Virus record (IMG/VR): IMGVR_UViG_3300037189_001599
Span: 1 to 25,104 of that record
DNA: 25,104 bases
From: a virus
Direction: 5' to 3' (one strand)
Shown one piece after another: positions 7,001 through 13,553 of this stretch. Position numbers and translations under genes: made by a program. Position 1 is the first letter of the stretch; each line of letters begins with the position of its first letter. The notes beneath the pieces are model-generated. The model did no database searches. It was given only the letters and a program-made list of their open reading frames with translations, and was not told the DNA's origin.

Positions 7001-7825
7001 TTACTTGTTTCGTGATTGCAATATAGCATCTAATATTGCGTTGTCTATTTTATCAGGAACTATGGGCTTAAGCAAGACATATTGGTCTCCTGTATGCCCA
7101 TTTACTTGTAATCCTTGACCTGCTACACGAACTTTGGTGTTAGGTTGTGTTTTGGGTTTGATTCCTAAATTGAATTTACTACCAGACAATGTAGTGAACT
7201 CAATATCTGTACCCACAATCAAGTCTAATACAGAGATTTCTACTTCACTGTGTAGGTCTAGTCCTTCTCTTTGGAACTTGTCATTGGCATGAACTCTGAA
7301 CTCAATGATTAACACACCATCGGGTATTAGATTATCATAGCGCATTTGTCCGCCATTATCTATACCTTTTGGAATGTCAACACGCACTGTTTGATTGCCC
7401 GAATTTGTTCTGAACTGTAGTACTTGTTCCCCACCATTCAATACTTGTTCTAGTGTAATCCAAATTGTAGTTTTGTATGTTGGGCGTTGCTGTCTTTGAT
7501 GACCAAACATTTGACCAAACATGTCGTGAAAGTCCATTCCACTTCTTGGGTCAAAGTTGAAATTGAATCCGCCACCAAAAGGACTTCCTGTAGTAAAGTG
7601 AAAGCCACCGGGTGCGCCACCCATACCACCGAAGGGATTTGGATTGTCGTATTGTTGTTTCTTTTCTGGATCGCTTAGTGTTTCATAAGCAGTTTGAATT
7701 TTTTGAAACATAGCAGTATCACCACCCTTGTCAGGGTGATGTTGATTTGCTAGTTTGCGATATGCTCTTTTAATATCTTCGGGGGTAGCATTTCTGTCTA
7801 CCCCCAGGGTTTGATAGTGTTCCAT
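7001..7825 (-). CDS. DnaJ-like co-chaperone, CbpA type (no zinc finger)
   Basis: 274 residues. A J-domain at 1-60 (YQTLGVDRNATPEDIKRAYR) contains the invariant HPD at 30-32, which stimulates DnaK ATPase. It is followed by a Gly/Phe-rich linker (65-108) and two C-terminal substrate-binding beta domains (TIWITLEQVLNGGEQ; LDLHSEVEISVLDLIVGT). The CxxCxGxG zinc repeats of type I DnaJ are absent, so it is a type II, CbpA-like protein; about 300 residues is usual, so this is slightly short but complete. It presumably recruits host DnaK. It is the first gene of the dnaJ-clpA unit. There is no obvious ribosome-binding site: a consensus sigma70 -10 ends 7 nt before the ATG, suggesting a leaderless or very short leader mRNA. 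Confidence 0.9.
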   Translation of the reverse strand: MEHYQTLGVDRNATPEDIKRAYRKLANQHHPDKGGDTAMFQKIQTAYETLSDPEKKQQYDNPNPFGGMGGAPGGFHFTTGSPFGGGFNFNFDPRSGMDFHDMFGQMFGHQRQQRPTYKTTIWITLEQVLNGGEQVLQFRTNSGNQTVRVDIPKGIDNGGQMRYDNLIPDGVLIIEFRVHANDKFQREGLDLHSEVEISVLDLIVGTDIEFTTLSGSKFNLGIKPKTQPNTKVRVAGQGLQVNGHTGDQYVLLKPIVPDKIDNAILDAILQSRNK

Positions 7826-7832
7826 AGTGTTG

Positions 7833-7862
7833 ATTATAGCACAGTTAGTGTGCTATTGTCAA
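7833..7862 (-). promoter_or_regulatory. Consensus sigma70 promoter of dnaJ-clpA
   Basis: The minus strand has TTGACA (7862-7857), an 18-nt spacer and TATAAT (7838-7833), the latter in the extended form TGCTATAAT. Both hexamers are perfect. Only 7 nt separate the -10 from the ATG at 7825, so transcription should start at or next to the start codon. A CATAAATA late-like box (7870-7863) abuts and just overlaps the -35 element. Confidence 0.8.
7836..7856. promoter_or_regulatory. Perfect inverted repeat in the dnaJ promoter spacer (possible operator)
   Basis: ATAGCACA and TGTGCTAT form a perfect 8-bp inverted repeat around the 5-nt centre GTTAG. It fills the promoter spacer and overlaps the first bases of the -10 hexamer. 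No T-tract follows on either strand, so it is not a standard terminator. Position and symmetry suit a repressor or activator site; the binding protein is unknown. Confidence 0.5.
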
Positions 7863-7865
7863 TAT

Positions 7866-8492
7866 TTATGAAGCTACGCCGGCTACCTTTTCTTTTGTAC
7901 GACCGTATGCGGCGATACCTAAAACAGCACCCATTGCGATGTGGTAAAGACCAGCACCCTGTAGTGTTAATGGTTGCCATTGACTTGTAACTGAACCATG
8001 ACTTAGTGCTTGTAGTACTGACCATAATACTGGAAAAATTACAAAGTCACATGTACATGTCAACATATAAATCCAACCCATCATTGGGCGCATTTTCTTG
8101 TTGATCCAATCTGTTGCATCTTTGTCTAATGCTACTGTAGACTCTCCGCCTTCGCTCATTGCACCGCCACCACTCTTTAGTGACTCTGCTTGATTTTGTG
8201 TTACTGTTACTGTACTTGTATTTGTACTTGGCATATTTGAACTCCCTTGATTAGTTGTTGCTGGGGCACTGCCCAAAGAACCTTGTGAACCTGGTGCTAC
8301 AGTGCCCAAGTTGCCAAATCCACCTGCTGCCGGTGCAGTACTCATTGTGTTACCACCTAATGGTGTACTGCCAAAACTACTACCTGCTGGAAATGCTGAT
8401 ATAGTTGGGTCAGCTGCCATCATTTCGTGATGGTCATCTGTTTTTGCTAATGGCATAGAGCCATCTGCTTTTTTTGCTAATAATGTTGCCAT
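7866..8492 (-). CDS. Putative holin with long low-complexity N-terminus
   Basis: I chose the ATG at 8492 (208 aa) over an upstream start at 8513 because AGGA lies 8 nt before it and it follows the previous stop by one base. Residues 1-120 are Gly/Ser/Ala/Thr/Asn-rich and disordered. The C-terminal 80 residues contain membrane segments: MMGWIYMLTCTCDFVIFPVLWSVLQAL and GAGLYHIAMGAVLGIAAYG, ending in a basic tail (RTKEK). The segment WINKKMRPMMGWIYM to QWQPLTLQGAGLYHIAMG resembles the three-TM holin family described for gene-transfer-agent release and found in many phages. Its role would be making inner-membrane lesions that release the endolysin. It lies in a late block but far from the endolysin gene. 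The holin call is from pattern memory and topology. Confidence 0.6.
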   Translation of the reverse strand: MATLLAKKADGSMPLAKTDDHHEMMAADPTISAFPAGSSFGSTPLGGNTMSTAPAAGGFGNLGTVAPGSQGSLGSAPATTNQGSSNMPSTNTSTVTVTQNQAESLKSGGGAMSEGGESTVALDKDATDWINKKMRPMMGWIYMLTCTCDFVIFPVLWSVLQALSHGSVTSQWQPLTLQGAGLYHIAMGAVLGIAAYGRTKEKVAGVAS

Positions 8493-8493
8493 T

Positions 8494-9084
8494 TTATAAT
8501 CCTGCCTTTGCAATAAAATCTTTTAATAAACTATCTTTTTCTTTGTAAACATTTGCATTGGCTAATCCTGCAATGTTTCTCATCTCGTTTAAATCACCAT
8601 CTTCTACATCTTCTACATCTTCAATATCTTCAACGTCATCATCGCCTTCTTCATTCTGTTCACGATATTCCATTGGGATAGTGATGATATGTTGCTTTAA
8701 CGTATTTAATTCTGGTTCGTACTCTTCACCGTTTATTTTAACTGTCCAGTCTGCTAAAGATAATCCAGTTAACGTTTCTAAATCATCTAATATTTCTAGT
8801 AATCTTTCTGGTGACTTGCTTCTACGATTAGTTTCTACAAACACAACGAAACGATTTGCCATTAACTCACCTTCGCTAACTTCAGCATCGTTAATATAAT
8901 CATATCCTTTGATTAACCAATCACACAAATCTTCACCAACTGCTTTACCTTTAACTATAAAAGAAAATGTAATGATTTCATCATTTTCACCGGATCTTGC
9001 TTCATATTCATCAACTGATACGATTGGAACAAGTTGATTTTCAAAATCTAAGTGGTCTAAACCTTCAACAAGTACTTTTCTCAT
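8494..9084 (-). CDS. Conserved T4-like phage protein, 196 aa, probably virion-related
   Basis: A soluble, acidic protein. The N-terminal two thirds look like a mixed alpha/beta domain (MRKVLVEGLDHLDFENQLVPIVSVDEYEAR through DWTVKINGEEYEPEL). Then comes an acidic run of Glu/Asp/Val repeats (EEGDDDVEDIEDVEDVEDGD, about 143-162) and a C-terminal segment LNEMRNIAGLANANVY. The LNxxRxxxGL element recurs in the giant protein at the right of the window. It follows the 207-residue gene with TAATATG spacing and precedes the holin. I recognise it as a type of protein common in environmental T4-like phages; function unknown. The acidic run could be a DNA-mimicking or linker segment, which is speculation. 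Confidence 0.6.
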   Translation of the reverse strand: MRKVLVEGLDHLDFENQLVPIVSVDEYEARSGENDEIITFSFIVKGKAVGEDLCDWLIKGYDYINDAEVSEGELMANRFVVFVETNRRSKSPERLLEILDDLETLTGLSLADWTVKINGEEYEPELNTLKQHIITIPMEYREQNEEGDDDVEDIEDVEDVEDGDLNEMRNIAGLANANVYKEKDSLLKDFIAKAGL

Positions 9085-9085
9085 A

Positions 9086-9709
9086 TTACATTCCTACGGG
9101 TTGACCATTTGGTGCAGCACCTGCGCCTGGGGCTGGGGGAGGCACACCTTGCCCACCTAGTGTTTGTTGACTCATATCCCCTTCTTGATCCTGACCTTCT
9201 TTGTCATAATCTTTTTCGTATGCATCATCCAACTCGTCTAGCTCAATGTTCTGACCAGCTAAGTCAATACTACCCTCACGGATATCGTTCATTAATTGTT
9301 TTGGAATCTCAATACGAACTAACCAAATTTCACGGTTAATCATCTTTGGGAAATGTGTTCCGGGCTTATAGTCATCAGGGCTATCAATCTTGATAGGTAC
9401 TTTGATTTTTGTCTTTTTAAAGTGAACTGTACAGCCCAGTTTAATAATTCTTTTACCTGCTCTTGGGTCGGGCATTAGTTTAGCTGGGTACATAAAAATA
9501 CATGCCACCGTGTACTTTTTAATCTTTGGACCATCAACTAATTCGCCCAAATCCCAGTTTTGGTAGGCGTACATATCGGCTTCATCTATTACTCGCTCAA
9601 AGTCTAGTAATGTGGATAGGGAAGCATCGCTGGTGAAAATACCCTTAATACTGTCAATAATACTAGGATAGTCAATATCTGAGAAAAAATCGTTTGCTGG
9701 TGACTTCAT
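9086..9709 (-). CDS. Conserved T4-like phage protein, 207 aa, probably virion-related
   Basis: The protein has a compact N-terminal domain (residues 1-150), with DFERVIDEADMYAYQNWDLGELVDGPKIKKY, the strand-rich VACIFMYPAKLMPDPRAGKRI, and KTKIKVPIKIDSPDDYKPGTHFPK. An acidic segment and a Gly/Pro/Gln/Ala-rich tail (PPPAPGAGAAPNGQPVG) follow. There is no signal peptide or membrane helix. It is the first gene of a short late unit (207 aa, 196 aa, holin). The ATG is preceded by GATAAATA only 7 nt away and has no visible Shine-Dalgarno. Such proteins recur in environmental T4-like phages near structural genes; I cannot name a function. Confidence 0.6.
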   Translation of the reverse strand: MKSPANDFFSDIDYPSIIDSIKGIFTSDASLSTLLDFERVIDEADMYAYQNWDLGELVDGPKIKKYTVACIFMYPAKLMPDPRAGKRIIKLGCTVHFKKTKIKVPIKIDSPDDYKPGTHFPKMINREIWLVRIEIPKQLMNDIREGSIDLAGQNIELDELDDAYEKDYDKEGQDQEGDMSQQTLGGQGVPPPAPGAGAAPNGQPVGM

Positions 9710-9716
9710 AATAAAG

Positions 9717-9724
9717 TATTTATC
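9717..9724 (-). promoter_or_regulatory. T4-late-like promoter (GATAAATA) directly at the gene start
   Basis: GATAAATACTTTATT precedes the ATG at 9709 with only 7 nt between box and ATG. In T4 late promoters the start site lies about 6 nt past the box, so this mRNA would have essentially no leader. Confidence 0.55.
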
Positions 9725-9772
9725 ATTTAAAAACTTATTATGTTGATTTCAAAAATACCGGGGTTAGCCTAA

Positions 9773-9780
9773 TATTTATC
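9773..9780 (-). promoter_or_regulatory. Second T4-late-like box upstream of 9709 gene
   Basis: The minus strand reads GATAAATATTAGG, 63 nt upstream of the ATG at 9709. It lacks the C that follows the box at other late starts, so it is less certain than the proximal copy. Confidence 0.35.
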
Positions 9781-9840
9781 ATAATATGTGTGAGAAATAC
9801 ATGACTATTAAAAATACCACCGCAAACTCTTAAATATATG

Positions 9841-9861
9841 TGAGAGGTAAGTCTACTCTCA
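9841..9861 (+). promoter_or_regulatory. Short hairpin in the phoH leader
   Basis: TGAGAG (9841-9846) pairs with CTCTCA (9856-9861) across a 9-nt loop, immediately before the AAAGGAG ribosome-binding site. The stem is only 6 bp and may be incidental. Confidence 0.25.
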
Positions 9862-9880
9862 TTTCAAAGGAGAATCTAAC

Positions 9881-10657
9881 TTGAGCAAAAGAAAAACTGG
9901 TGCTCTCCGTCAGGAGCAAGACGCTAGAATAGCATATTCTAAAAAACAAGACAACACATACTACACACAGGAATCAAAGACAATCAATTTCAACATATCA
10001 AAACCTAAATCAACGAACAGGCATATAGAATTAGTCCCCAAATCACTCAATCAGGAAAAGTACATCTTAGCATTATTAAATCCAGAAACGGATATAGTAG
10101 TGGTCAGTGGTCCTGCGGGCACTGGTAAGACTTATCTAGCTATGCAAGCGGCGATTAAGGCTATGAAATCTGGAGAATGTGATAGGATCATCCTAACACG
10201 TCCTGCAGTGGGTGTAGATGATGAAAAGCATGGGTTTTTACCAGGAGATTTGAACGCTAAAATGGAGCCTTGGACTCGTCCATTGCTTGATGTATTGCGT
10301 GAATACTACACAGCAAAAGAAATTATGTACATGCTGGAAGAACAGATAGTTGAGATTGCACCACTTGCATTTTGCAGAGGTCGCAACTTTAAAAGAAGTT
10401 TTGTAGTATTAGATGAAGCTCAAAATTGTACACCTAGTCAACTCAAAATGATTATGACTAGAATCGGCATCGGCAGTAAAATTGTAGTTACTGGTGATAT
10501 TGAACAAGCCGACAGAAAATCAGCCGACAACGGGCTACTAGACCTACAAAATCGTTTGGGGAAGGGGGTGATACCAGGTTTGCAGTTATGCAAGTTTGAA
10601 CTGAAAGACGTTCAACGACACAAAATTATTGAACATATTTTGGGTCTATATCAGTAA
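9881..10657 (+). CDS. phoH: PhoH-like P-loop ATPase
   Basis: 258 residues from a TTG start, chosen because AAAGGAG lies 8 nt upstream and no better ATG precedes the domain. Residues 1-55 are basic and polar. The PhoH ATPase core has Walker A GPAGTGKT (77-84), the family segment LTRPAVGVDDEKHGFLPGDL (105-124) and Walker B VVLDEAQN (175-182), followed by TGDIEQADR (204-212). PhoH is an RNA-helicase-like ATPase of uncertain function, linked to phosphate starvation in bacteria and very common in marine phages. This is the only plus-strand gene in the window. Its 3' end overlaps the convergent gene by 32 nt, so the two transcripts are complementary there. A perfect hairpin lies 17 nt past the stop. 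Confidence 0.92.
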   Translation: MSKRKTGALRQEQDARIAYSKKQDNTYYTQESKTINFNISKPKSTNRHIELVPKSLNQEKYILALLNPETDIVVVSGPAGTGKTYLAMQAAIKAMKSGECDRIILTRPAVGVDDEKHGFLPGDLNAKMEPWTRPLLDVLREYYTAKEIMYMLEEQIVEIAPLAFCRGRNFKRSFVVLDEAQNCTPSQLKMIMTRIGIGSKIVVTGDIEQADRKSADNGLLDLQNRLGKGVIPGLQLCKFELKDVQRHKIIEHILGLYQ

Positions 10658-10943
10658 CCTGGTCATCTGAGTCAGAGGGGAGTATCTCCCCTCTCCAGCC
10701 ATTCTCTTCGGACAATCTATCTACGATGTTAGGATACACACCCTTGTAATATGCATACAAGTTATCCCAATCAGTATCTACACGTTGTCCATCAATAATG
10801 CATTTATTAACTTTACGTTCCTGAAAGTCCATAATGATATTGACTGTTTGTAGGTCAGAATTTTTAATTTTCTTACCAAGACCAACCATCTCATCAATTT
10901 TACCGTCAGCTTTTTTGACGTAAGTTACTAATAGATATCTCAT
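10626..10943 (-). CDS. Conserved small T4-like phage protein, 105 aa, downstream of gp44
   Basis: It begins with a strand (MRYLLVTYVKKADGKIDEMV), has a second hairpin (VNIIMDFQERKVNKCIIDG), then a helical segment (WDNLYAYYKGVYPNIVDRL), and ends acidic (PSDSDDQVTDIDPKY). The fold is probably a small alpha/beta domain. Its ATG overlaps the stop of the clamp-loader gene as ATGA, so it is translationally coupled. In T4 the gene after 44 is 62, the small clamp-loader subunit, but this protein is much shorter than T4 gp62 (about 187 aa) and I see no match. It resembles an uncharacterised family of environmental T4-like phages. Its 3' end overlaps phoH on the other strand. Confidence 0.65.
   Translation of the reverse strand: MRYLLVTYVKKADGKIDEMVGLGKKIKNSDLQTVNIIMDFQERKVNKCIIDGQRVDTDWDNLYAYYKGVYPNIVDRLSEENGWRGEILPSDSDDQVTDIDPKYVQ
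10674..10694. promoter_or_regulatory. Perfect 9-bp hairpin just past the phoH stop
   Basis: AGAGGGGAG and CTCCCCTCT are perfectly complementary around a 3-nt loop (TAT), 17 nt downstream of the phoH stop codon. It lies within the coding sequence of the convergent gene. No T-tract follows on the plus strand, so it is not a classic rho-independent terminator. It could stop or protect the phoH 3' end, or act on the antisense mRNA. Confidence 0.45.
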
Positions 10944-11863
10944 GTTGTTAATTCTGCTAATGTTGCTGCCAAGCTGATTTCGGGAATGCCAACCATTGAA
11001 AGATTGACTAAGCCATTACGAATCACAATGATTGCTTGGTCTTTTTGTTCTGGAGTCTTGCCCCACAAGTCTAAGTTATTGTACATCCAACGATATGTAT
11101 CTTCAATACGTGTAGGATACAATGCTAAATGTTGTAACAATTGCTGACGACCTTCAATGACTTTACCACTCTTAAACAAATTAGTTGCTTCAAGTAATAA
11201 TTCATCTTCACTGTTACCGATACTTACTGGTGGTAACAATGTCCCTGTACTACTGTTGACTTGTACTTGATTCAAGCACTTACGCAAGTCTGGATATGTA
11301 GCACGAACATAACTGTCTAGTACATCCAATTCAAACTGAATGTTTTCAGTAACCAATACAGTTGCTACACGTGCAGTGAATTCTACCATATCAGTTTTAG
11401 TGATATGGAATTCGTGACAACGACTCTTAAGTGCTGGGATAATCTTGTGCTGATAGTTACAAGTTAGAATATAACGAACTGTACCTGCATAAGCTTCCAT
11501 GTCATTACGTAATGCCGCTTGTGCTGCCGCTGTAAGATAATCTGCCTCGTCTAACAACACGACTTTGAAGTTACCAAAAGGCATTGTTTGTACAAAGCCA
11601 TTGATTTTATCACGCATGTTATCAATACCGTTTTCACGACTCGCATTGATTTCTAGTACGTCATATTCTTGTACACCCAATTGATGTATCAATACTTTTG
11701 CAAGTGTTGTCTTACCAGTACCGGGGTCGCCGCTTAACAATAGATGCGGGATAGTACCAGAACTAATCCAACCCTCTACTTGTTGCTTTTGTCGTGCGTC
11801 AACAAAAACATATTCTTCTACTGTTGTAGGACGATACTTTTCTACCCATAGATTGTTCTTCAT
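10940..11863 (-). CDS. 44: Sliding-clamp loader large subunit (T4 gp44-like AAA+ ATPase)
   Basis: 307 residues, close to T4 gp44 (319). Motifs in order: LWVEKYRPTTVEEYV at the N-terminus (typical RFC/gp44 start), Walker A SGDPGTGKTT (44-53), Walker B VVLLDEADYL (101-110), sensor I region ILTCNYQHKIIPAL, and the SRC motif (147-149) with the trans-acting arginine finger. A helical collar domain follows. It loads the gp45 clamp onto primer-template DNA for the phage polymerase. It overlaps both neighbours by 4 nt and lies in the early-type unit with GroES-like and DnaE-like genes. No gp45 or recognisable gp62 is in the window. Confidence 0.92.
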   Translation of the reverse strand: MKNNLWVEKYRPTTVEEYVFVDARQKQQVEGWISSGTIPHLLLSGDPGTGKTTLAKVLIHQLGVQEYDVLEINASRENGIDNMRDKINGFVQTMPFGNFKVVLLDEADYLTAAAQAALRNDMEAYAGTVRYILTCNYQHKIIPALKSRCHEFHITKTDMVEFTARVATVLVTENIQFELDVLDSYVRATYPDLRKCLNQVQVNSSTGTLLPPVSIGNSEDELLLEATNLFKSGKVIEGRQQLLQHLALYPTRIEDTYRWMYNNLDLWGKTPEQKDQAIIVIRNGLVNLSMVGIPEISLAATLAELTT

Positions 11864-12183
11864 CGTTTCAGTGCTTCGTAAGTGATAATGTGATTTAATT
11901 CTTGACCCAAGTCTTTGTCATGGGGTACGATATGTAGTGAATTCTTCATTCTATCTGATTTCTCATCATAGTGACGTAACTCAACTACATGTCCGCCGTT
12001 AGCATTATACAATGTAAATGCTACGCCACGACTTTCTAATTCACCGGATTCACGTGATGTTACAGGACTACGCTGTGCTCTTTTACTACCGGTCATAACA
12101 AGATGGGGTCCGTCATCTGTCTCTTGTGGAACACTCCAAGCCCAGCGAGCCTTCTTTAAAAACCAATTATCAAACCACTTCAT
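11860..12183 (-). CDS. Conserved small T4-like phage protein, 107 aa
   Basis: I chose the ATG at 12183 over a GTG at 12201 because AAGG lies 8 nt upstream and the ATG follows the GroES-like stop by one base. The protein begins MKWFDNWFLKKARWAW, an amphipathic, Trp-rich basic segment. A polar linker (SKRAQRSPVTSRESGE) and a beta domain follow (GVAFTLYNANGGHVVELRHYD, SLHIVPHDKDLGQELNHIITYEALK). I recognise the AFTLYNANGGHVVELRHYD to IVPHDKDLG pattern from environmental T4-like phages but know of no function. The stop overlaps the gp44 ATG (ATGA). A Trp/Lys-rich start could bind membrane or DNA, which is speculation. Confidence 0.65.
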   Translation of the reverse strand: MKWFDNWFLKKARWAWSVPQETDDGPHLVMTGSKRAQRSPVTSRESGELESRGVAFTLYNANGGHVVELRHYDEKSDRMKNSLHIVPHDKDLGQELNHIITYEALKR

Positions 12184-12184
12184 A

Positions 12185-12553
12185 TTAGTATACCTTATCA
12201 CTCATTGTATCATCATTGGGAAGCTCATCACTAACTAAAAGGATATCATTAGGATCAACTTTACGAATTGTTTTCTTACCTGTTTCATCTTCAATATCAA
12301 TACCTCTAGTCCAACGACCATGACTAACTAGTATCCATTTACCAACTTGAATTTCTTCATCCTCATGGTCTGGACCTAATGCATAGACTCTTGCCCAACG
12401 TGGTCTGATACCTGAACTCTTACCGTCATCACCGGGAATGATAATTCCGCTTGTTGTGATACGTGCATCAAAACTCATATCGCAAACAATGATTGCATTG
12501 CCGATAGGTTTTACTGCTTTAACTTTATGTGCTTCAAATGCTAATTTACTCAT
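12185..12553 (-). CDS. GroES-like co-chaperonin (gp31-type)
   Basis: 122 residues, slightly longer than GroES (about 97) and near T4 gp31 (111). VKPIGNAIIVCD opens the beta barrel. The mobile loop that contacts GroEL is seen as MSFDARITTSGIIIPGDDGKS (26-46), where SGIIIP corresponds to GGIVL of GroES. The chain closes with VGKWILVSHGRWTRG and the final strand NDILLVSDE. T4 gp31 replaces GroES so that host GroEL can fold the capsid protein; the same role is inferred here. The ATG has no obvious Shine-Dalgarno but lies 6 nt after a perfect TATAAT. The C-terminal tail (LPNDDTMSDKVY) goes beyond the normal barrel. Confidence 0.82.
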   Translation of the reverse strand: MSKLAFEAHKVKAVKPIGNAIIVCDMSFDARITTSGIIIPGDDGKSSGIRPRWARVYALGPDHEDEEIQVGKWILVSHGRWTRGIDIEDETGKKTIRKVDPNDILLVSDELPNDDTMSDKVY

Positions 12554-12559
12554 GTGTTG

Positions 12560-12588
12560 ATTATATGTGAAAAGTTGTATATCTTCAA
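12560..12588 (-). promoter_or_regulatory. Sigma70-type promoter of the groES-like gene
   Basis: TTGAAG (12588-12583), a 17-nt spacer and TATAAT (12565-12560), followed by CAACAC and then ATG at 12553. The 12-mer TATAATCAACAC is identical to the dnaJ promoter. The -35 lies across the end of the upstream gene. Only 6 nt separate the -10 from the ATG. Confidence 0.65.
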
Positions 12589-13001
12589 GGCTTTTGGCTA
12601 ACTACTTTAACAATGTCATCAACCGAAAAATCATCGGCTACTTCATCATCATTTAACAATTCCATTTCCTCTGGCGTGACAATATCTACTTCTTCTTCTA
12701 CGGGAGGCGGAACATACATTGGCTTGTCCGGAACCAAATACTTTGGTTCGTCCGGAACCAAATCTGATTTTTTAATTTCTTCTTGGTTGTCACCAGACAT
12801 ACTGTGCATTTTACTTGCAAGGGTTTTGTGGTATACACTACTAATACGTTGATTATTATCCATAATCACTTCATTTTTGCTGTCAATGATATCACCACGT
12901 GCATTTACATTCATATTACCTGCGGCTCTTACATGTTCATGTTTACTGGCTAGTGCTGCCATATCAATTTCTTTTCCGATTGCGGATCTCATTCTAGACA
13001 T
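12585..13001 (-). CDS. Conserved T4-like phage protein, 138 aa
   Basis: The N-terminal half is basic and polar (MSRMRSAIGKEIDMAALASK, then EHVRAAGNMNVNARGDIIDS), a stretch I recognise as conserved in environmental T4-like phages. The C-terminal half is acidic and Pro-rich and contains a near-repeat, LVPDEPKYLVPDKPMYVPPP, then EEEVDIVTPEEMELLNDDEV. It is probably partly disordered. A strong ribosome-binding site (AAGGAG, 6 nt before ATG) supports the start. It lies 10 nt downstream of the DnaE-like gene and its stop overlaps the -35 of the groES-like promoter. Function unknown; a binding or adaptor protein in replication is possible from context only. Confidence 0.65.
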   Translation of the reverse strand: MSRMRSAIGKEIDMAALASKHEHVRAAGNMNVNARGDIIDSKNEVIMDNNQRISSVYHKTLASKMHSMSGDNQEEIKKSDLVPDEPKYLVPDKPMYVPPPVEEEVDIVTPEEMELLNDDEVADDFSVDDIVKVVSQKP

Positions 13002-13011
13002 TTGTTACTCC

Positions 13012-13518
13012 TTATTTTAAAAACTCATCAATGGACAAGTCATAGTACAAACTATTTATCCTGTGTACACCTATAAGAAATAATACGAAACTAGCGATAC
13101 TACTACCTCGTCCTACTCCCCAGACTACATTGTTTGCTCTCATTGTGTCAACCAAATACTTAAGATAGCGCAACAATGGAAACAACCCTCGTTCTTGGAA
13201 CAGTATTAATTCTTGCCCAGCACGTTGTAATTCAGCATATCCATTAGTTTGGTCAAGTACGAATTTAGCAATATCCATGTCAATATATTCTTTTGGCATG
13301 AACCATTTAGACTGATTTACTTCGTCAAATTCTTTTAATGACATTTCGGGCTTAGAATAAACAACAAACTTTGTGTTGATTGACAGTTCCAATGATTGAT
13401 TAAATATCATAGGTTTATCTACCAAAGCACGTTTGAGTTGTGCTTCTGGATCAGTTAGGTAGATATTGCAAATATCATCAGGTGACAATACTTGCTGACC
13501 AAATTCATCTGTATACAT
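13012..13518 (-). CDS. Short DnaE-like (Pol III alpha) fragment protein, 168 aa
   Basis: The C-terminus, VVWGVGRGSSIASFVLFLIGVHRINSLYYDLSIDEFLK, matches the start of the bacterial DNA polymerase III alpha palm domain, where GxGRGS is followed by the segment leading to the first catalytic aspartates. The protein ends just there, so the PDFDxDF metal-binding motif is missing. The 130 residues before it (including WFMPKEYIDMDIAKFVLDQ and AELQRAGQEL) correspond loosely to the region between the PHP and palm domains. Full DnaE is about 1,100 residues, so this is no complete polymerase. It is not obviously decayed: the frame is intact, a consensus promoter abuts its ATG, and a strong ribosome-binding site follows its stop. 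Short DnaE-like proteins are known in T4-like marine phages; function unknown. Confidence 0.65.
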   Translation of the reverse strand: MYTDEFGQQVLSPDDICNIYLTDPEAQLKRALVDKPMIFNQSLELSINTKFVVYSKPEMSLKEFDEVNQSKWFMPKEYIDMDIAKFVLDQTNGYAELQRAGQELILFQERGLFPLLRYLKYLVDTMRANNVVWGVGRGSSIASFVLFLIGVHRINSLYYDLSIDEFLK

Positions 13519-13524
13519 TTTGCT

Positions 13525-13553
13525 ATTATAGCAGATTATAAGATGAATGTCAA
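13525..13553 (-). promoter_or_regulatory. Consensus sigma70 promoter of the dnaE-like/groES unit
   Basis: TTGACA (13553-13548), 17-nt spacer, TATAAT (13530-13525) as extended TGCTATAAT: a perfect match on all elements. A second TATAAT lies 10 bp upstream (13540-13535). The -10 ends 6 nt before the ATG at 13518, so the predicted start site falls on the start codon. It fills the 36-nt gap after the upstream stop codon. Confidence 0.85.

Follow-up and report, generated by a model that had tools for sequence, protein, structure and literature searches.

The leaderless cI mRNA of phage lambda is made from PRM. It is the mRNA of a single lysogeny repressor of a temperate phage, and has been named as leaderless (PMC9031893). 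In the Thermus phage phiYS40, most of the middle and late mRNAs are leaderless, and IF2 is raised and IF3 lowered during infection (PMC3594737). A comparable arrangement is known in bacteria, where the start codon of TA-led genes and of the -10-adjacent ORFs of Deinococcus is preceded at about 12 bp by a -10-like box, with no Shine-Dalgarno (SD) sequence (PMC3160421, PMC12340547). Leaderless genes and the leaderless mRNAs of phiYS40 are already known; what is new here is a conserved, predicted leaderless programme of T4-related jumbo phages that draws on two promoter classes.

The clade described below resembles each of these systems in part. phiYS40, a lytic phage, also shows short offsets when its genome is scanned for sigma70-type sites in this way (7 at 5-8 nt, with further ones up to 13), but its host is Thermus, a group in which leaderless genes are common, and it has no offset peak at NATAAATA. 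Our clade, in contrast, is one of T4-related jumbo phages with two promoter classes, the use of which could be mapped across orthologues. As in TA-led genes, there is a -10 at the spacing that puts +1 on the start codon, no SD and an AUG start. However, TA-led and Deinococcus promoters are mainly a -10, whereas here there is often a strong -35 together with an extended -10, and a gp55-type class as well. Instead of a single repressor as in lambda, several genes for replication, chaperones and structural proteins are involved. Finally, the clade shares with T4 the TATAAATA-type late promoters and a gp55-family sigma, but none of the ATGs (of ORFs of at least 60 aa) in T4, RaK2 and half of Atu_ph07 is located 4-8 nt from a late motif, while in the clade about a third of the late-motif ATGs within 60 nt are (103 of the 318 at 4-60 nt).

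The window, i.e., the whole stretch of DNA analysed, is the 25,104-base IMG/VR record IMGVR_UViG_3300037189_001599, in which scans gave no Rfam match and no tRNA. PA5oct-type jumbo phages have the nearest relatives of the window's clamp loader and of its GroES-like and DnaE-like proteins (identity up to 54%), with Atu_ph07, Phosso, SCTP-2, RaK2 and 121Q being more distant. In both the window and PA5oct the genes run in the order DnaE-like, small gene, GroES-like, clamp loader, PhoH. The DnaE-like protein (168 aa, with a partial match to PF07733) is a stand-alone protein common to PA5oct, Atu_ph07 and RaK2. A limited search of the literature on PA5oct and promoters retrieved no transcript map of this phage. 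Searches of viral contigs provided 77 groES, 22 dnaJ and 80 dnaE loci, and four contigs of 303-352 kb holding relatives of the window (G001-G004) were read as whole genomes, although the relatives' contigs are possibly incomplete. The DnaE-like proteins of G002-G004 are 65-73% identical among themselves and 62-64% identical to that of the window. T4, RaK2, PA5oct, S-PM2 and half of Atu_ph07 were used as the outside comparison set. Both the scoring of promoters and the cut-offs applied to it were chosen by hand, and the best sigma70-type site was sought 0-40 nt upstream in distinct upstream regions.

Three genes of the window, all on the minus strand, have a host-sigma70-like promoter abutting the start codon and are predicted to be leaderless. 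The dnaE-like gene (13012..13518; PF07733 fragment / phrog_11127) is preceded by a TTGACA -35 box (13553-13548), a 17-nt spacer and a TATAAT (13530-13525) that ends 6 nt before the ATG at 13518. For dnaJ (7001..7825; PF00226 and PF01556) the TTGACA (7862-7857) is separated by 18 nt from a TATAAT (7838-7833) that ends 7 nt before the ATG at 7825. At both promoters the -10 is extended (TGCTATAAT), with TGC ahead of TATAAT. In the groES-like gene (12185..12553; Cpn10, PF00166), for which the prediction applies to this sub-lineage, the -35 is TTGAAG (12588-12583), which overlaps the upstream gene's stop codon, and after 17 nt the TATAAT (12565-12560) ends 6 nt before the ATG at 12553. Boxes, spacers and coordinates agree with those of the preliminary description, as do the 12-mer TATAATCAACAC common to dnaJ and the groES-like gene and the lack of an SD before the three ATGs in the window. 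The perfect combination TTGACA-N16-18-TATAAT was observed twice in the window against 0.07 expected. However, TATAAT-N4-9-ATG was found 7 times against 3.7 +/- 1.9 expected, which is not beyond chance, so that the claim is carried by conservation in relatives and not by window counts.

This conservation was clearest for dnaE. Among the homologues with a score of at least 10, the -10 ended 5-7 nt from the ATG in 79/79, and at exactly 6 nt in 64 of them; the sequences of the -35 and -10 boxes vary, and so does the gap to the upstream gene (9-57 nt), but the distance to the ATG is nonetheless kept. The gene is apart from the upstream frame and has an abutting promoter in 93 of the 109 distinct dnaE proteins (one of these rows, with a weaker score, was assigned by hand), while the remaining 16, PA5oct and RaK2 included, overlap the upstream frame by 4-41 nt. 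On a maximum-likelihood tree the promoter/overlap label takes two changes, versus 15 for shuffled labels. As many as 90 of the promoter rows fall in one group (support 90/71), with three others apart; within this group no loss of the promoter was detected, nor any cultured phage among those placed on the tree. Since the rows are related, these are two events and not 109. It appears from the tree that dnaE went from overlapping the upstream gene to a predicted abutting promoter of its own mainly once, at the base of the 90-row clade.

For dnaJ, 58/60 homologues scoring at least 10 have the end of the -10 at 5-8 nt from the ATG. The dnaJ promoter also contains a dyad, TAGCACA-CTAAC-TGTGCTA (7837..7855, minus strand), the right arm of which enters the -10; a stem of at least 6 bp was found in 37/58 homologues, compared to 8.4% of the shuffles. 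Directly upstream of the -35 is CATAAATA (7863..7870, minus strand), a possible second promoter of the late type, and 24/58 homologues have an ATAAATA at a distance of 34-37 nt from the ATG. Judging from these motifs, it may be that dnaJ is also transcribed from a late-type promoter, with a leader of roughly 30 nt, and it is conceivable that the conserved potential hairpin could be placed in the leader of that late transcript. Along similar lines, near-palindromes centred on the -10 of tilS and dnaE were seen, e.g., CTATGCTATAATGCATAG just ahead of the ATG; these dyads look covarying, but shuffling ignores relatedness and we make no claim about them.

An SD was detected in none of the 165 dnaE and dnaJ homologues, and the normal leaders with ribosome-binding sites that were searched for at these two genes in relatives were not seen, which supports the predicted leaderless state put forward in the preliminary description. 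We enlarged the comparison with a 166-aa gene of unknown function (p166), a TilS-like gene and a 5'-3' exonuclease. At a score of at least 10.5, 40/40 p166 and 17/17 tilS homologues had the promoter at 5-6 nt, and for ten further genes of the window, with 49-98 homologues apiece, the count at 5-8 nt was 0; homologues are mutually related, so that none of these counts are independent. For dnaE, dnaJ, p166 and tilS together, an SD is present in 0/242 sequences and the start is ATG in 240/242, in contrast to 41/60 in clpA and 0/58 in phoH. The SDs noted for clpA, phoH and the 12585-13001 gene do occur in nearly all of their homologues, and are strong in most. An attempt to detect AUG-only use from GTG/TTG ratios at short offsets was abandoned, the whole-genome counts being few and too noisy.

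The layout is not universal. Exonuclease (fen) homologues are split, with 21 at 6 nt and 22 at 26-36 nt, and those with distant promoters (for example, L330 and L372) often have no SD too, so that the lack of an SD alone is not diagnostic. In the groES-like gene the layout is kept in the close relatives L001, L004 and L006 and in a few distant ones, and 49/91 homologues have some SD; its predicted leaderless state is not conserved beyond close relatives and a few others. What had been proposed as an unusual, uniform strategy is therefore not uniform, given the few groES-like cases, the divided exonuclease and the many genes that keep leaders and SDs. On the other hand, the predicted leaderless layout is wider than first claimed, since it extends to further sigma70-type and T4-late-type genes in the genomes of relatives.

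Sigma70-type sites with an ATG at exactly 6 nt numbered 9, 10, 9 and 7 in G001-G004, forming a peak, and 0-1 in each genome of the outside set. In each relative genome, short offsets are seen for about 10-13 ATGs with sigma70-type promoters, the candidate genes including primase-like, Mre11-like, GIY-YIG and ribonucleotide reductase small subunit genes, among others, and for 15-30 ATGs with T4-late-type promoters. G002 and G003 (e.g., L182 and L188) also contain a second, leadered family of near-identical promoters (TTGACAATAAAT..TATAATACTTGTATTGA), several of them followed by AGGAG-like sites.

In the clade, NATAAATA promoters are followed by an ATG at 4-8 nt in 103 cases, at 9-15 nt in 7 and at 16-60 nt in 208, against 3, 5 and 180 in the outside set (Fisher 3e-20). 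In G001-G004 the offsets peak at 4-5 nt and leadered genes begin from 16 nt on; a leader of a few nucleotides has no room for an SD, and thus the gap at 9-15 nt fits two modes of translation. Of the short-offset late-motif genes, 100/104 have no SD. The peaks are found whichever base (G, T, C or A) precedes ATAAATA, while the controls GATACATA, GATATATA and GATAATTA gave a weak peak or none. A gp55-family sigma was identified in G001, G002 and G003, but not in G004, a contig that is possibly incomplete. In the window, GATAAATA (9717..9724, minus strand) lies 7 nt before the ATG of a virion structural protein gene (9086..9709, minus strand; phrog_12928), a predicted leaderless late gene of which 62/62 homologues start with ATG and have no SD, and in which the distance between ATAAATA and the ATG is most often 4, 5 or 7 nt. 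By contrast, the same GATAAATA at 13053..13060 (minus strand), located 51 nt ahead of the 12585-13001 gene, is a leadered late promoter. This gene has an SD; in its homologues ATAAATA is mostly at 50-52 nt and the SD is found in 98/98.

We are confident that leaderless transcription is the best explanation for the abutting promoters of the three genes, and from their position we infer both where the mRNAs begin and how ribosomes bind them. The sigma70-type promoters would set +1 on the first base of the AUG, or no more than about 1-2 nt away from it, as the start position at this type of promoter can shift by 1-2 nt, and ribosomes would bind the resulting leaderless mRNAs via the 5'-terminal AUG. 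The three genes would then be part of a programme of the whole clade, in which T4-late-type promoters (gp55-family sigma) serve some structural genes. A sigma70 -10 occupies positions -12 to -7 and a T4 late box -13 to -6, so that distances of 6 and 5 nt are predicted; the observed peaks are at 6 nt for the sigma70 type and 4-5 nt for the T4 late type.

A different possibility, which we regard as unlikely, is that the local promoter acts as a booster, with translation mainly from upstream read-through mRNAs and a leaderless product that is poorly translated. The genes do sit in same-strand runs, dnaJ may have its late-type promoter upstream, and bacteria can translate non-overlapping genes devoid of an SD. 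However, read-through would not require a -10-to-ATG distance held at 5-8 nt, coupling over the dnaE gaps would be weak, with no SD in the gap in any dnaE or dnaJ homologue, and the dnaE lineages without the promoter regain coupling by overlap. It is even less probable, to the point that we give it little weight, that the start codons are misassigned and a real start downstream leaves a short leader. Such reannotation was needed in Deinococcus (PMC12340547), but here the dnaE matches and nearly all of the dnaJ matches listed align from residue 1 or 2, Met1 of dnaJ is directly ahead of the J-domain match (residues 2-60), and the overlap-type dnaE genes begin at the same Met. That TATAAT or ATAAATA stands beside the ATG by accident in AT-rich intergenic DNA can be dismissed, for even if raw genome counts of TATAAT-N5-7-ATG equal those of reversed-pattern controls and the window count is near chance, it is ruled out by the offset histograms, in which peaks emerge in the clade once a -35, an extended -10 or reading frames are required and are not seen in T4, RaK2 and Atu_ph07 despite common motifs, and by the spacing conserved among orthologues.

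If the genes are leaderless, as we think, phage factors might take part in their translation. Huge phages with rpS1 candidates often have no SDs (PMC7162821), and leaderless translation reportedly benefits from the supply of fMet-tRNA (PMC9031893). A search for S1 domains in the phages examined gave none. G001-G004, PA5oct and Atu_ph07 encode the ribosomal protein bS21, and IF3_C was found in RaK2 and Atu_ph07, but not in G001-G004 or PA5oct. G002 and G003, each with 24-35 tRNA genes and a tmRNA, have one Met-anticodon tRNA apiece (L192:3576-3650; L205:1328-1402), with C first and an A-TCCA end, by eye an unpaired C1-A72 as in initiators. Beside the tmRNA of G002 there is a CTA-anticodon tRNA (L181:3712-3786), a possible amber suppressor. 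The ties of bS21, IF3_C and the Met tRNA to leaderless translation are suggestive only. We propose quite tentatively, and with the odds rather against it, that in this T4-related jumbo clade a gene set across sigma70-type and gp55-type promoters is leaderless and aided by phage factors (an initiator-like tRNA in two genomes, bS21 and no IF3 of its own), with an initiation route unlike that of the host.

Leaderless translation in proteobacteria is usually argued from a few cases such as lambda cI. The clade offers a gene set conserved over dozens of contigs, with matched relatives (PA5oct, RaK2, Atu_ph07 and T4) that have leaders, and with natural experiments in dnaE (overlap versus abutting promoter) and in the 5'-3' exonuclease (short versus long distance). 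Gene finders that expect an SD may misplace starts in these phages. Very probably, judging from their promoters and start codons, a large uncultured group of giant phages expresses a fixed gene set with neither leader nor ribosome-binding site, while T4 and the cultured giant relatives in the comparison have normal leaders.
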